Of a DNA stretch of 64,000 nt, positions 1 through 41,138 are shown piece by piece. This stretch comes from Hansschlegelia quercus (lineage in GTDB: Bacteria > Pseudomonadota > Alphaproteobacteria > Rhizobiales > Methylopilaceae), in the NCBI RefSeq assembly GCF_004310425.1, contig NZ_SIUB01000008.1, forward strand, positions 1-64,000. Direction: 5' to 3'. Made by a program: the position numbers and the translations under genes. Under the pieces are notes generated by a model. That model was not told where the DNA came from. It saw only the letters and a list, made by a program, of their open reading frames with translations, and searched no databases. Numbering within the stretch: the stretch's first letter is position 1; every line of letters begins with the position of its first letter.

Positions 1-2
1 AA

Positions 3-50
3 ATGCCGTGCGTGGAGCGCCGGGCGACCGGCAACTACTCTACCCCCTGA
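3..50 (+). CDS. Possible leader peptide in element A (15 aa)
   Basis: ATG at 3 followed by codons ending VERRATGNYSTP and a TGA. The same frame and C-terminal residues occur in element B, where the peptide is 26 aa. The last codons and the stop lie inside the hairpin. No ribosome binding site can be judged because the window begins two bases upstream, and the true start may lie outside. Whether the peptide is translated is inference, resting only on frame conservation between two copies that are nearly identical anyway. Confidence 0.25.
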   Translation: MPCVERRATGNYSTP

Positions 51-153
51 CGGTGGCCCGGCGCTCCCGCGCTTCCCGCCTGAACGAGACCCTCGCTGTT
101 TGACCAAAGCTGGACAAGGGCTTTCCGGGCCGCCGGAGGATGTCGCGCGTCCG
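11..153 (+). repeat. Intergenic element, copy A (hairpin, mini-ORF 3' end and two conserved downstream blocks)
   Basis: Positions 11-74 match the reverse complement of 39273-39335 with one substitution (39) and one extra base. TTTGACCAAAGC at 99-110 matches 39220-39231, and 125-153 matches 39176-39204 with two differences. A perfect 12-bp stem (14-25 with 56-67) is extended inward by ACCG/CGGT (27-30 with 51-54) after a single mismatch, leaving a 20-nt loop that holds the TGA of the mini-ORF at 3-50. The sequence between the conserved blocks has diverged, which argues for selection or a modular repeat. I do not recognise the family. The next gene on this strand is the PHB depolymerase, about 290 nt downstream. 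Confidence 0.7.
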
Positions 154-174
154 GGTTCCTGCGCTTGATATTGG

Positions 175-2821: not shown

Positions 2822-3565
2822 TTGACCATTCGGATCGCATTCTCCGATTGGCGCCCCGCAATCCGGCCGCTGGCGCCGGGTCAAGCGGCGGCCGCCGTCG
2901 GCGACGTCCACGGGCAGGACGATCTGTTCGGCGCGCTGCTCAACGCGCTGGCCGACGATCTCGCTTCGCGCAGCGCCGCGCCCGTGATCGTCCAGCTCGG
3001 CGACCTCGTCGACCGCGGGACAGGCTCTATCGACGCGCTTCGGCGGGCGCAGCGTGGCCTGCCCGGCATCTCGTTCGTGACGCTCATGGGCAATCACGAG
3101 GACTGCCTGCTCCGCGCCCTCGGGGATGACGAGGACGACGCGCTCCGCTGGTTCAACTGCGGCGGCGCGACGACGCTAGCCCAGCTAGGGCTCAGCCCGG
3201 ATGACACAGATTGGCGCGAGCGCTTACGGTCCGGCGTCGGCGACGAAACGCTCGACTGGGTCGCGCGCCTGCCCACTGCTCACCGGATCGGCGACCTGCT
3301 GTTCGTCCACGCCGGCATCGACCCTGAAACGCCGCTTGTCGCGCAGGACGCCACGACGATGATGTGGGTCCGCGGCCCGTTCCTCGACAGCGACGGGCCC
3401 TACCCGGAAGGCGTTGCGGTGATCCACGGACACACGCCGCAGAAGAAGGTCGAACTTCGCCACCCCCACCGCGTCAATCTCGATACCGGAGCGTTCCGTT
3501 CGGGCGTCCTGTCGGCGCTGATGATCGCCGGCGACCGCATGCGCCTCGCGCAGGCCGTCCGCTGA
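2822..3565 (+). CDS. Calcineurin-like metallophosphatase (PP1-like serine/threonine phosphatase fold)
   Basis: 247 aa. The metal-ligand motifs of the calcineurin-like phosphoesterase family appear in order: GDVHGQ (residues about 27-32), GDLVDRG (about 60), GNHED (about 90) and later FVHAGI and GHTPQ. It resembles bacterial PrpA/ApaH-type enzymes that remove phosphate from proteins or nucleotides; the substrate cannot be read from sequence. The TTG start at 2822 lacks a good ribosome binding site, so the N-terminus is uncertain, but no ATG exists upstream of the first motif. regB follows 77 nt downstream on the same strand. Confidence 0.85.
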   Translation: MTIRIAFSDWRPAIRPLAPGQAAAAVGDVHGQDDLFGALLNALADDLASRSAAPVIVQLGDLVDRGTGSIDALRRAQRGLPGISFVTLMGNHEDCLLRALGDDEDDALRWFNCGGATTLAQLGLSPDDTDWRERLRSGVGDETLDWVARLPTAHRIGDLLFVHAGIDPETPLVAQDATTMMWVRGPFLDSDGPYPEGVAVIHGHTPQKKVELRHPHRVNLDTGAFRSGVLSALMIAGDRMRLAQAVR

Positions 3566-3642
3566 ACCGGCCGCACTTGTCTCGCGTCGGCGCGGCGACA
3601 TAGGGTCCGGCTCCGTCATATCGCCGACGCTTAAGGCCTCTC

Positions 3643-38173: not shown

Positions 38174-38890
38174 TTACCGGCCGCCGCCCGGCCCGCGGGT
38201 TCCGCTCGGCGCCTGGACGCGGAACACGCCGGGGTCGATCTTCGCCTGCGGATTGAGGTCGGAAAGCACCACGGACGTGTCCATCCCCTGCGCGTCGGTC
38301 ACCGTCCACTGGCGCAGCTCGTAGTTCTGGCCGGAGAACAGCAGCTGGATCTGCGCCGCGCCGCCGATGGCGTTCTTCTGGATGAGCACGACCGAGACCA
38401 TGTCGGGCTCCTGGTAGACGCCGATCACGTCGGTGTCCTTCATCAGGTCGATGTTCGCCGACAGCAGCACGCGCAACGGCGTCTGGCTGAGCGGCCAGTT
38501 CTCCTGCGTCGCGAGCTTGCGGTTCTTCACCACCACGGTGTTGCCGTTCGAGACGATCTCGAGCGGGCTCGGCGGCGCATACTGGAAGCGGATCTTTCCG
38601 GGCCGCGACAGATAGAGCTTGCCGACGCTGCGCGAGCCGTCCGGCCCGGTCTGCTCGAAGCTCGCGGTCAGATCCTGGATCGAGTTGAAATAGGCGTTCA
38701 CGCGTTGCAGCGTCGCCCGCTGGGCGGCGTCGAGCTGGTTCACCGGCACGCCGCGATTGCCCGCGGCCGGCTGGGCCTGCGGCGGGGGCGGCACGTCGGC
38801 CGGCGCGCCCGAGGCGGACTGGGCGGCCGCGGGCGCGGCGGCGAGCGCTGACAGGATCGCGAAGGCGGCGGCGGAACGGCGAAGCGTCAT
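38174..38890 (-). CDS. lolA: Outer-membrane lipoprotein carrier LolA-like protein
   Basis: 238 aa. Signal peptide (RRSAAAFAILSALAAAPAAAQ), a Pro/Ala-rich stretch, then the LolA core (VNAYFNSIQDLTASFEQT, SVGKLYLSRPGKIRFQY, LPLRVLL-like PLRVLLSANIDL). It carries lipoproteins across the periplasm to the outer membrane. ATG 38890 begins the signal peptide; the open frame beyond it is intergenic. In relatives ftsK lies immediately upstream; here 3.4 kb of extra DNA intervenes. Confidence 0.9.
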   Translation of the reverse strand: MTLRRSAAAFAILSALAAAPAAAQSASGAPADVPPPPQAQPAAGNRGVPVNQLDAAQRATLQRVNAYFNSIQDLTASFEQTGPDGSRSVGKLYLSRPGKIRFQYAPPSPLEIVSNGNTVVVKNRKLATQENWPLSQTPLRVLLSANIDLMKDTDVIGVYQEPDMVSVVLIQKNAIGGAAQIQLLFSGQNYELRQWTVTDAQGMDTSVVLSDLNPQAKIDPGVFRVQAPSGTRGPGGGR

Positions 38891-39040: not shown

Positions 39041-39161
39041 CGTCATCCCCGACTTGTCCCGGGATCCATTTGCCGCCGCGCGTTGAGAACAGACCGCCGC
39101 GCGCCCGCTCACTCCCGCGCCGTCGCGTTTATGGATCCCGGGACGAGCCCGGGATGACGGC
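39041..39161. repeat. Inverted repeat of the GTCATCCCGG...CCGGGATCCA family
   Basis: GCCGTCATCCCCGACTTG with CCCGGGATCCAT (39041-39071) faces ATGGATCCCGGGACGAGC with CCGGGATGACGGC (39131-39161). The family is also seen in part at 289-315 and near 60393-60500. No coding role. Confidence 0.75.
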
Positions 39162-39175
39162 GGCGGGAGGTCTTG

Positions 39176-39335
39176 CGGACGCGCGAAATCCTCCGGCTGC
39201 CCGGATCGGCTTCAGGCCCGCTTTGGTCAAAGAGCCCCGGCGAACGACTTCGATCGCCGCACCTTACGGGGAAAGCGCGGAGCGCCGGGCCACCGTCAGG
39301 GGGTAGTGTAGTTGCCGGTCGCCCGGCGCTCCACG
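39176..39335 (-). repeat. Intergenic element, copy B (inverted relative to copy A)
   Basis: Reverse complement of element A in three blocks: 39273-39335, 39220-39231 and 39176-39204. The 12-bp hairpin is intact (39279-39290 with 39321-39332, extended by 39292-39295 with 39316-39319), and the mini-ORF stop lies in its loop. The spacing between the first and second blocks is larger than in copy A (41 versus 24 nt). The next gene on this strand is lolA, about 290 nt downstream, with an inverted repeat between, as copy A is followed by repeats before phaZ. Confidence 0.7.
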
Positions 39336-39376
39336 CGCGACGTCTCCCGTCTGGCTGCGGACGAAGTCTCGGACAT
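39296..39376 (-). CDS. Possible leader peptide in element B (26 aa)
   Basis: ATG at 39376, arginine/serine-rich, ending VERRATGNYTTP and TGA at 39298-39296. It shares its final 12 residues, with one change (S to T), and frame with the mini-ORF of element A. No strong ribosome binding site is visible. Translation is unproven. Confidence 0.3.
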   Translation of the reverse strand: MSETSSAARRETSRVERRATGNYTTP

Positions 39377-39923
39377 CAATGGTTTTTCCCGCAGACATTC
39401 GCGTCCGCTTCGGGCGGGTCCCGGACCGATCCGGCCTTTGGAGCCGGGATCCGAAATCCGCCGCCATGCGCCCTTACGCCACGAAAGGCGCGCCCGTCTT
39501 AGTGCGGGCGGTTCTCTTCCCCGACGAAGCCCCCGCGCCCTCTTGAGGAACGCGCGAGCCGCGCCGACGCCGCAACAGACGCCCCGGGGCCGACACTTCC
39601 GGTCATGTCAGCCGCAGGCGCCGCTCCTCCCCCGCATGGCCGGCCGGTCCGGACACGCCTTCCGACGGGGAAGGATGTGCGGAAGAGAGCATGAGGCGGG
39701 GTGGAATGTCAAGGAATATTTACCCACATCAGCTTTCTCGCCATCGAACGGGCGCGCGCCTCTGCCTGACCCTTCGACGACAATCAGACTGTCCGTTTGC
39801 AAGGACTTGCCGGCTTATTATCCCGCGAGCGACGGAAGCGGAATGGCGGTTTTAGAGAGTCTTGCGGTAAGCGGCCCTCCGGCTACGATTGTCTTGTCGT
39901 GACCTCCCGTACAAGATTGATCC
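39377..39923. other. Gene-free left flank of the acquired segment
   Basis: About 550 nt without a credible gene. G+C falls progressively from about 39690 toward the nuclease-like gene (AAGGAATATTTACCC near 39710), marking the likely left border of foreign DNA. The longest ORF (from 39312) is Arg/Pro-rich and has no family features. Confidence 0.45.
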
Positions 39924-41138
39924 ATGCTGGGCTATCGACGGACGTCATTTCGCAAGGCACATGCCTTACTTGGCTCGCTTCGTCGGAACCTGTCGGATTT
40001 CGATTCTTTGATCGCACTACAGCAATTGCTGACACGTGAGATCATGCGCGCGGAGCGCAGGGTTCCTGGCCTCCGCCTAATGCTGAAGACAAACCCGAAT
40101 GATGCGAGCGTCAATCGTCGCCTCGAGGGATATCGCCATGCCGCATACATCTGGCGGTGCTTCGGCGACGCGATCGCCTTCCTTTATATGGATAAGCATG
40201 CCCTCAAACACACCTTCTACCATACCGACAAGGTAACGCCAAAGCAGAGCGCAGGCTTTTTAGGCAAAACCGGCATGGCGCATGAAATCGCGCTGGTTGA
40301 GTTTGCAAGCTCCAAAGGGGTGCCGGCGATGCTGACCGATCTCACGAACACCATACGCCATGGTGATGTGTGCCTGATGGGCGAGCCGGACCCTTACCTT
40401 ATAGAGGTGAAGACTAGTATCGACCTCAACTCCCGTGGAAGGCGGCAAAAGCGCAGCATCGAGAAGTTGCAATCGTTTTTTAAAAACGACTTCAGCAGGG
40501 AACTGCGTGGCTCTTCATACGTCCAGCGCGTTGAGTACAAAATTTCAGAGCGTGATTACGCCAGCGAGATGGCGGCTTGCATTGCCGAAGCAATGAAAAC
40601 GGGTCACGGCGTCCGGATGCCCGAACCTGGGTTGCTCTACATCGCAGCGACCAGGCGTTCCGCCGTCGAGGACGCCTTGAGCCAGGTTGAGGTGTCAGGA
40701 ACGACGGTATTCCTTCTTAACGAGATTAAGTCGCAGAGGAGTTGGTCGCCCTACTATCCCTTCACATTGTCGCTTCAGGATTTCGAGCACCTTTGGGCAT
40801 TCAGCCGCGGGACCGTCTATCTGATGGTGATAGTGGATTATTTGATGATGGTGACGACACTGAAAAGTGCGGGTCACCAAGCCGTTTTCGATCCCGATGC
40901 GGGAGATTTCCCTATTCGCTTTGTGCTGGATTCAGGTCAGATGGGAGCTATAGGCACGCACCTGTTAACTCGGATCGGGCTTGAGTTTCTCTCGCCATCG
41001 GTAATTGCTTTGTCTTCGGTCGAGATTTATCGAGCCTCCTCAGAACTGGTGGCTCAGCGGCAAGAGCAAGGCGAAGATGTCAGAGAATATTGCACAATGC
41101 CTAGCCCGGAAGCATGGCTTCGGGGCGATGCGCTATAA
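39924..41138 (+). CDS. Putative PD-(D/E)xK nuclease-like protein in low-G+C insert
   Basis: 404 aa. I recognise no named family. The pattern GDVCLMGEPDPYLIEVKTS (D148, E161-V-K163) fits the D...ExK core of PD-(D/E)xK nucleases; E121 in HEIALVEFA could be the helix glutamate. The rest is a mixed alpha/beta protein with a hydrophobic stretch near 280-300 (TVYLMVIVDYLMMV). Base composition and codons (TTA, ATA, TTTAAAAAC) differ sharply from the high-G+C surroundings, indicating horizontal transfer. It lies between lolA and a broken ftsK fragment. A defence or restriction role is inference only. Confidence 0.6.
   Translation: MLGYRRTSFRKAHALLGSLRRNLSDFDSLIALQQLLTREIMRAERRVPGLRLMLKTNPNDASVNRRLEGYRHAAYIWRCFGDAIAFLYMDKHALKHTFYHTDKVTPKQSAGFLGKTGMAHEIALVEFASSKGVPAMLTDLTNTIRHGDVCLMGEPDPYLIEVKTSIDLNSRGRRQKRSIEKLQSFFKNDFSRELRGSSYVQRVEYKISERDYASEMAACIAEAMKTGHGVRMPEPGLLYIAATRRSAVEDALSQVEVSGTTVFLLNEIKSQRSWSPYYPFTLSLQDFEHLWAFSRGTVYLMVIVDYLMMVTTLKSAGHQAVFDPDAGDFPIRFVLDSGQMGAIGTHLLTRIGLEFLSPSVIALSSVEIYRASSELVAQRQEQGEDVREYCTMPSPEAWLRGDAL

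Follow-up and report, generated by a model that had tools for sequence, protein, structure and literature searches.

The window, the whole 64,000-nt stretch of Hansschlegelia quercus DNA analysed here, contains two copies of a dispersed element, one at each end of a 39-kb interval. Copy A, at the left edge and followed downstream by a PHB depolymerase gene, contributes a plus-strand stem-loop with one conserved internal mismatch and a 20-nt apical loop. Copy B lies on the minus strand. The preliminary description of this DNA had reported that the stem, the TTTGACCAAAGC box and a GGAGGA-bearing tail recur 39 kb away in the same order with different spacers, and we saw exactly this arrangement at 39176–39339 on the minus strand. 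The 12-mer box occurred exactly twice in the 64 kb, with 0.10 occurrences expected when one mismatch was allowed. A blast search with bases 1–165 returned 8 dispersed matches in the 3.58-Mb host genome. When the copies were compared across 13 genomes of the genus, conservation extended ~375–400 nt 5′ of the hairpin. The hairpin first noticed is the 3′-terminal hairpin of a putative RNA gene of ~470 nt. The 5′ three quarters of the element are present in copy B (39340–39725) and missing from copy A, since base 1 of the window is also the first base of contig C16, and for the same reason only the 3′ end had been seen at first. The features of both copies are collected in Table 1.

Table 1. Features of the two RNA gene copies in the window and the genes next to copy B.
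Feature	Position	Strand	Remarks
Copy A, 3′ end of RNA gene	1–155	+	R1 match 1–73 = model positions 6–78 of 78; 5′ parts in other host copies
Copy A, final hairpin: 16-bp outer stem, internal mismatch G.G, 4-bp inner stem	10–72	+	
Copy A, hypervariable apical loop; non-conserved TGA at 48–50	31–50	+	frame lost in other copies
Copy A, 3′ tail box TTTGACCAAAGC	99–110	+	variants in other species, e.g. GCTGTTTGAC
Copy B, complete RNA gene with promoter-like region	39176–39725	−	
Copy B, AT-rich dyad GG-W8-CC directly upstream of TTGACA	39713–39724	−	possible operator
Copy B, −35-like TTGACA	39707–39712	−	
Copy B, weak −10-like hexamer CTCTCT, 17-nt spacing	39684–39689	−	last T invariant in 41/41 copies
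Copy B, P1: 5′ domain helix with inner stem	39625–39677	−	helices 1–3, 97–98% of cells paired, CG<->UA double changes
Copy B, long-range helix, 5′ strand GCGGCG	39619–39624	−	helix 4, 100% of cells paired, G-C/G-U only
Copy B, P2: hairpin with conserved loop ACCGG	39582–39618	−	helix 5, double changes in 7/11 pairs
Copy B, mid hairpin CCGCCC-GCACTAAGA-(C)GGGCG	39491–39511	−	loop GCAYTANGA recognisable in other families too
Copy B, long-range helix, 3′ strand CGTCGC	39337–39342	−	foot of final hairpin
Copy B, final hairpin	39275–39336	−	second copy of the preliminary description
LolA gene	38177–38890	−	neighbour of copy B
Gene for 404-aa protein	39924–41135	+	neighbour of copy B; no Pfam match

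A mini-ORF whose TGA is trapped in the hairpin loop had been put forward as a conserved feature. This was not borne out, as both the frame and the TGA are lost even between copies of the host genome. Among the 8 host copies, two gain an extra C before the TGA and lose the frame, one has a different loop, and in one the TGA comes earlier; other species keep the stem, with a loop of unrelated sequence.

We examined the fold in an alignment of 41 copies (A4), from which RNAalifold gave a consensus of 58 pairs. The consensus comprises P1 with its inner stems, P2, a long-range helix (GCGGCG/CGYCGY), the mid hairpin and the final hairpin, of which the long-range helix pairs the 5′ domain with the base of the final hairpin and closes over ~300 nt. 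Across the 41 copies, 96.7% of the cells in the consensus pair. Double changes were found in 18 of the 58 pairs (200 cells), compared to 12.6 pairs and 54.7 ± 10.6 cells in shuffled alignments; the copies are related and not independent, so that shuffles inflate significance, and slid controls, a partial remedy, reached at most 11 pairs and 43 cells with double changes. Variation in the long-range helix is confined to G-C <-> G-U exchanges. Within the genus the final hairpin has 2 compensated pairs, and in other families the sequence of its stem is widely different and, judged by eye, still pairs. Covariation is thus present in the element, which is not what a randomly placed MITE would be expected to show.

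The pairing signal was asymmetric between the strands. Under one RNAalifold procedure, the sense strand folded at −93.3 kcal/mol with 58 pairs and the antisense strand at −45.1 kcal/mol with 42 pairs, and the minimum free energy was lower for the sense strand in 34 of the 41 copies. Sense-structure cells contained 236 G-U and 13 A-C combinations, in agreement with this asymmetry, although the choice of the sense strand for the structure biases the count. The stronger sense-strand fold points to selection on an RNA read from the plus strand at copy A and from the minus strand at copy B. The structured-RNA reading in the preliminary description is strongly supported by the compensatory changes and the strand asymmetry, and it is upheld for a larger RNA than had been envisaged. 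With a length above 200 nt and a multi-helix structure carrying compensatory changes, this RNA resembles the large ornate ncRNAs in these respects. Between the window copy and its orthologous partner at the same site in another genome, L107, 4 of 116 paired columns differ compared to 65 of 372 other columns, and 11 of the 20 loop positions differ. Three of the four changes in paired columns break pairs, which suggests that some copies may be decaying.

A promoter-like region precedes the 5′ domain. TTGA is present in 53 and TTGACA in 45 of 55 distinct copies, always 48–52 nt upstream of the 5′ block, and in 40 of the 55 a GG-N8-CC dyad stands directly before TTGACA, with 8 inner bases that are 94% A+T in these GC-rich genomes. 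In the host genome the dyad-TTGACA pattern occurs at 5 sites, all of them RNA copies, and the reversed-pattern control gave 0. The hexamer after the 17-nt spacer is poor; its last T (column T23) is the sole invariant base before P1, as would be expected of the last base of a −10 box. Since a σ70 consensus scan of the region called no promoter, the promoter is a predicted one. By eye, promoters of the RpoH, EcfG and σ54 types fit more poorly than TTGACA-N17-NNNNNT. The promoter-like sequence differs in other families, reading AACTTATCCCC...TAAACT in some.

The hairpin model (R1) matched in all 13 genomes of the genus, and the 5′-domain model (R2) gave 1 to 25 matches per genome. An exact 24-mer from the 5′ block, whose single occurrence in the window is at 39637–39660, was found in 27 stretches of the genome collection; 26 of these come from records that carry the name Hansschlegelia, Methylopila or Chelatococcus sambhunathii, and the remaining one comes from a Xanthobacteraceae MAG. 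The same exact pattern had no match in viral contigs, and plasmid and phage records gave no match with the queries used. Another genus of the same family yielded 3 weak matches. Further out, families f3, f5, f31, f32, f35 and f42 carry the same element order where upstream DNA could be compared, and the homologues in other Hyphomicrobiales families are diverged and mostly multi-copy. In a sample of 337 genomes of the class the host was the sole match, and no homologues were found in the other alphaproteobacterial orders sampled; the hairpin model with its strict filters detects incompletely, and these absences are soft. A third model (R3), built from an alignment that held both palindrome strands, served for distribution only and was left out of the covariation analysis. 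The carriers are methanol-using soil bacteria and their relatives.

Comparison of flanks showed that several sites are common to different species. Despite these shared sites, copies cluster by genome in the tree (14 label changes compared to a shuffled mean of 29.6), and L132, L147 and L149, whose flanks show shared sites, do so as well; gene conversion or a recent duplication would account for this. The window copy does, however, group with L107. The copies appear to have been homogenised within genomes, either by recombination or by the recent duplication of units to which the promoter-like region belongs. Because the duplicated units include this region, copying was probably DNA-based. One site holds the RNA in genomes G010 and G012 and is empty in G008, through either loss or gain. 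At this single empty site we saw a 17-bp unrelated scar and no duplication. Three further copies (L229–L231) are truncated or interrupted. The empty site and these damaged copies indicate that individual copies are dispensable. In L230 (G012, ~2120–2200), the loop of the final hairpin is split by an apparent insertion sequence (AGAGCGTGATCGTCGTGTTTTGAATC...).

Nearly all copies checked (50 of 51) are intergenic. Of the 51, 33 are followed on the 3′ side by a gene running in their own direction and 18 by one running against them, at distances of 12–1373 bp, and no neighbour gene is common to the RNA copies. In a Pfam search of 38 proteins, nearly all of them direct neighbours, most of the families identified belong to metabolism, the envelope or transport. 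Transposase, integrase and helicase families did not turn up in this set; a neighbour located beyond L107 encodes an Exo_endo_phos protein. Y1_Tnp (RAYT) had no match in the host genome, in a search whose controls were positive in 5 of 14. No terminal inverted repeats were found, the final hairpin being the only inverted repeat, and no U-tract terminator follows it. In G004 and G012, two copies (L102 and L118) lie beside genes of the same family, Iso_dh (isopropylmalate/isocitrate dehydrogenase), on opposite sides.

These observations bear on several readings. The preliminary description had raised a leader peptide or attenuator acting in cis on the adjacent gene. With the reading frame lost even within one genome, a 3′ gene that varies in orientation and distance, unrelated neighbours and no U-tract after the hairpin, this is already contradicted, the ORF that ends in the hairpin loop of copy A being the one feature in its favour. 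It is also very improbable that the complementarity matters at the level of DNA only, as in the palindromic repeats of the MITE or REP/BIME type. A dispersed intergenic inverted repeat is what such an origin would leave, but here one strand carries the clearly stronger pairing signal, covariation extends over multiple helices including the one closing over ~300 nt, and neither terminal inverted repeats nor a Y1/RAYT gene was found in the genome. A family of trans-acting base-pairing sRNAs would use the hypervariable loop on its rigid stem for target recognition, with different targets for different paralogues. Most copies within one genome have nearly identical loops, and an ornately folded RNA of 470 nt is big by the standards of the class, so that we think this improbable, even though the loop varies between species over a constant stem and has diverged at so many positions between the window copy and L107.

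The serious rival is a selfish one, a mobile or repeat structured RNA whose fold aids the element's own spread or its tolerance and not the cell. It accommodates the high copy number of some genomes, the clustering of one-genome copies in the tree, the variable occupancy of one site, the truncated copies and the location of many copies at contig ends, which is typical of repeats. We nevertheless consider it less likely than a cellular role, as at least one copy is present in 13 of 13 genomes, several of which have only 1–2, at sites shared between species. Moreover, the neighbours searched include no transposase or integrase, the host genome has no Y1 gene and there is no terminal inverted repeat, the searches of plasmid and phage records (with the queries used) and of viral contigs (with one exact pattern) gave no match, and the neighbours are mostly core metabolic genes. 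The earlier suggestion of a non-autonomous repeat with modular constraint stands insofar as the element is a dispersed, homogenised repeat, but it finds no counterpart in terminal inverted repeats, a Y1 transposase in the genome or a transposase family next to the copies searched.

We conclude from the sequence comparisons that the element is probably a previously undescribed family of large (~470 nt), stand-alone structured ncRNA genes, dispersed in multiple copies and putatively transcribed. The preliminary description knew of no named family with this arrangement, and likewise no Rfam family matches: with Rfam release 15 the window gave no match at the gathering threshold, and among the loci searched at an E-value threshold no match reached the gathering score or covered the element. 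Lenient Rfam matches are attributable to chance, and the 46-nt stretch of Brucella BASRCI408 found in L161 falls elsewhere. The literature searched, which included few subscription papers, contained no earlier description of the RNA.

For such an ncRNA gene, RNA polymerase would start at the foot of P1, possibly helped by an activator on the adjacent AT-rich dyad. Class II activator sites usually lie near −42, which is where the dyad would be centred. The 5′ domain would then fold and the long-range helix close a multi-branch body, from which the final hairpin would project as an arm with a long conserved stem and a hypervariable apical loop; RNA dosage would be set by gene copy number. The role we favour for the product is that of a stable trans-acting structural RNA, for example part of an RNP or an oligomeric scaffold, a predicted role to which we give somewhat less than even credence. 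We also propose, tentatively, that the genes form a class of large trans-acting RNA that extends across the order Hyphomicrobiales. Like rRNA genes, they would have been amplified, to as many as ~25 chromosomal copies, and homogenised; they would share a conserved arrangement of operator and promoter, carry an exchangeable arm and supply an abundant structural RNA or RNP in many members of the order.

Known systems share parts of this picture. Phages or mobile elements are the usual setting of GOLLD and ROOL, whereas OLE typically occurs as one copy. The present RNA differs from all three in occurring as many chromosomal paralogues between core genes, with no Rfam sequence match. It resembles them in its size of several hundred nt and its elaborate conserved fold, and GOLLD, ROOL and OLE have been reported as homo-oligomers (PMC12286853). 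The mobile/repeat sequence candidates (MRSC) of the GC-IGR pipeline are likewise structured elements with several copies per genome, and they are often associated with transposases, integrases, nucleases or helicases (PMC11109978). In contrast, no transposase, integrase or helicase adjoins the copies of the present RNA that were searched, the single Exo_endo_phos neighbour aside. REP units are 20–40 nt long and far more numerous than the present RNA. REP/BIME elements share with it a dispersed intergenic hairpin with a conserved internal mismatch, but the RNA is ~470 nt long and folds on one strand, in a host that lacks a Y1 transposase. Some rhizobial trans-sRNA families, also from Hyphomicrobiales, are multicopy; these are usually ~100 nt, and none of their Rfam models matches the present RNA.

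Large structured bacterial RNAs are scarce, and where their role has been solved it has in several cases turned out to be fundamental. The present family is not in Rfam, occurs across several families of an environmental and plant-associated order and in all 13 genomes sampled from one genus, and has more paralogues per genome than most large structured RNAs. Methylopila and Hansschlegelia type strains, single-copy genomes and a covariation-supported fold provide material for testing its role.

Several other repeats and variants were seen along with these copies. The genus has a second RNA subfamily of ~280–300 nt with the same plan and promoter-like dyad (L223, 2009–2300; L224–L228; L233). 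It is marked by a GCACTACGA mid loop, a AAAACCGTGCGCGGGGCGCC final hairpin and a GCTGTTTGACATCGC tail, and one copy lies in the host genome (G000:C8:524508). In L161, L163 and L219, which belong to genomes G276 and G341 of a single other family, tandem units of GTTTGCGCTACCGGCC..GGCCTACTTGAGCG and GTCCTCATGTAGCCG..AGGACAAACAAAA enlarge the RNA's variable region; these units are found outside the RNA as well. REP-like dispersed palindromes often adjoin RNA copies, in the window as CGTCATCCCGGGCTCGTCCCGGGATCCAT (39041–39160 and 282–310) and CCCTCACCC..CTCTCCCGCAAGCGGGAGAGGG (181–216). A different repeat of ~160 bp adjoins the RNA in G010 (L148, ~3456–3613) and recurs ~25 times in G012 and G008.
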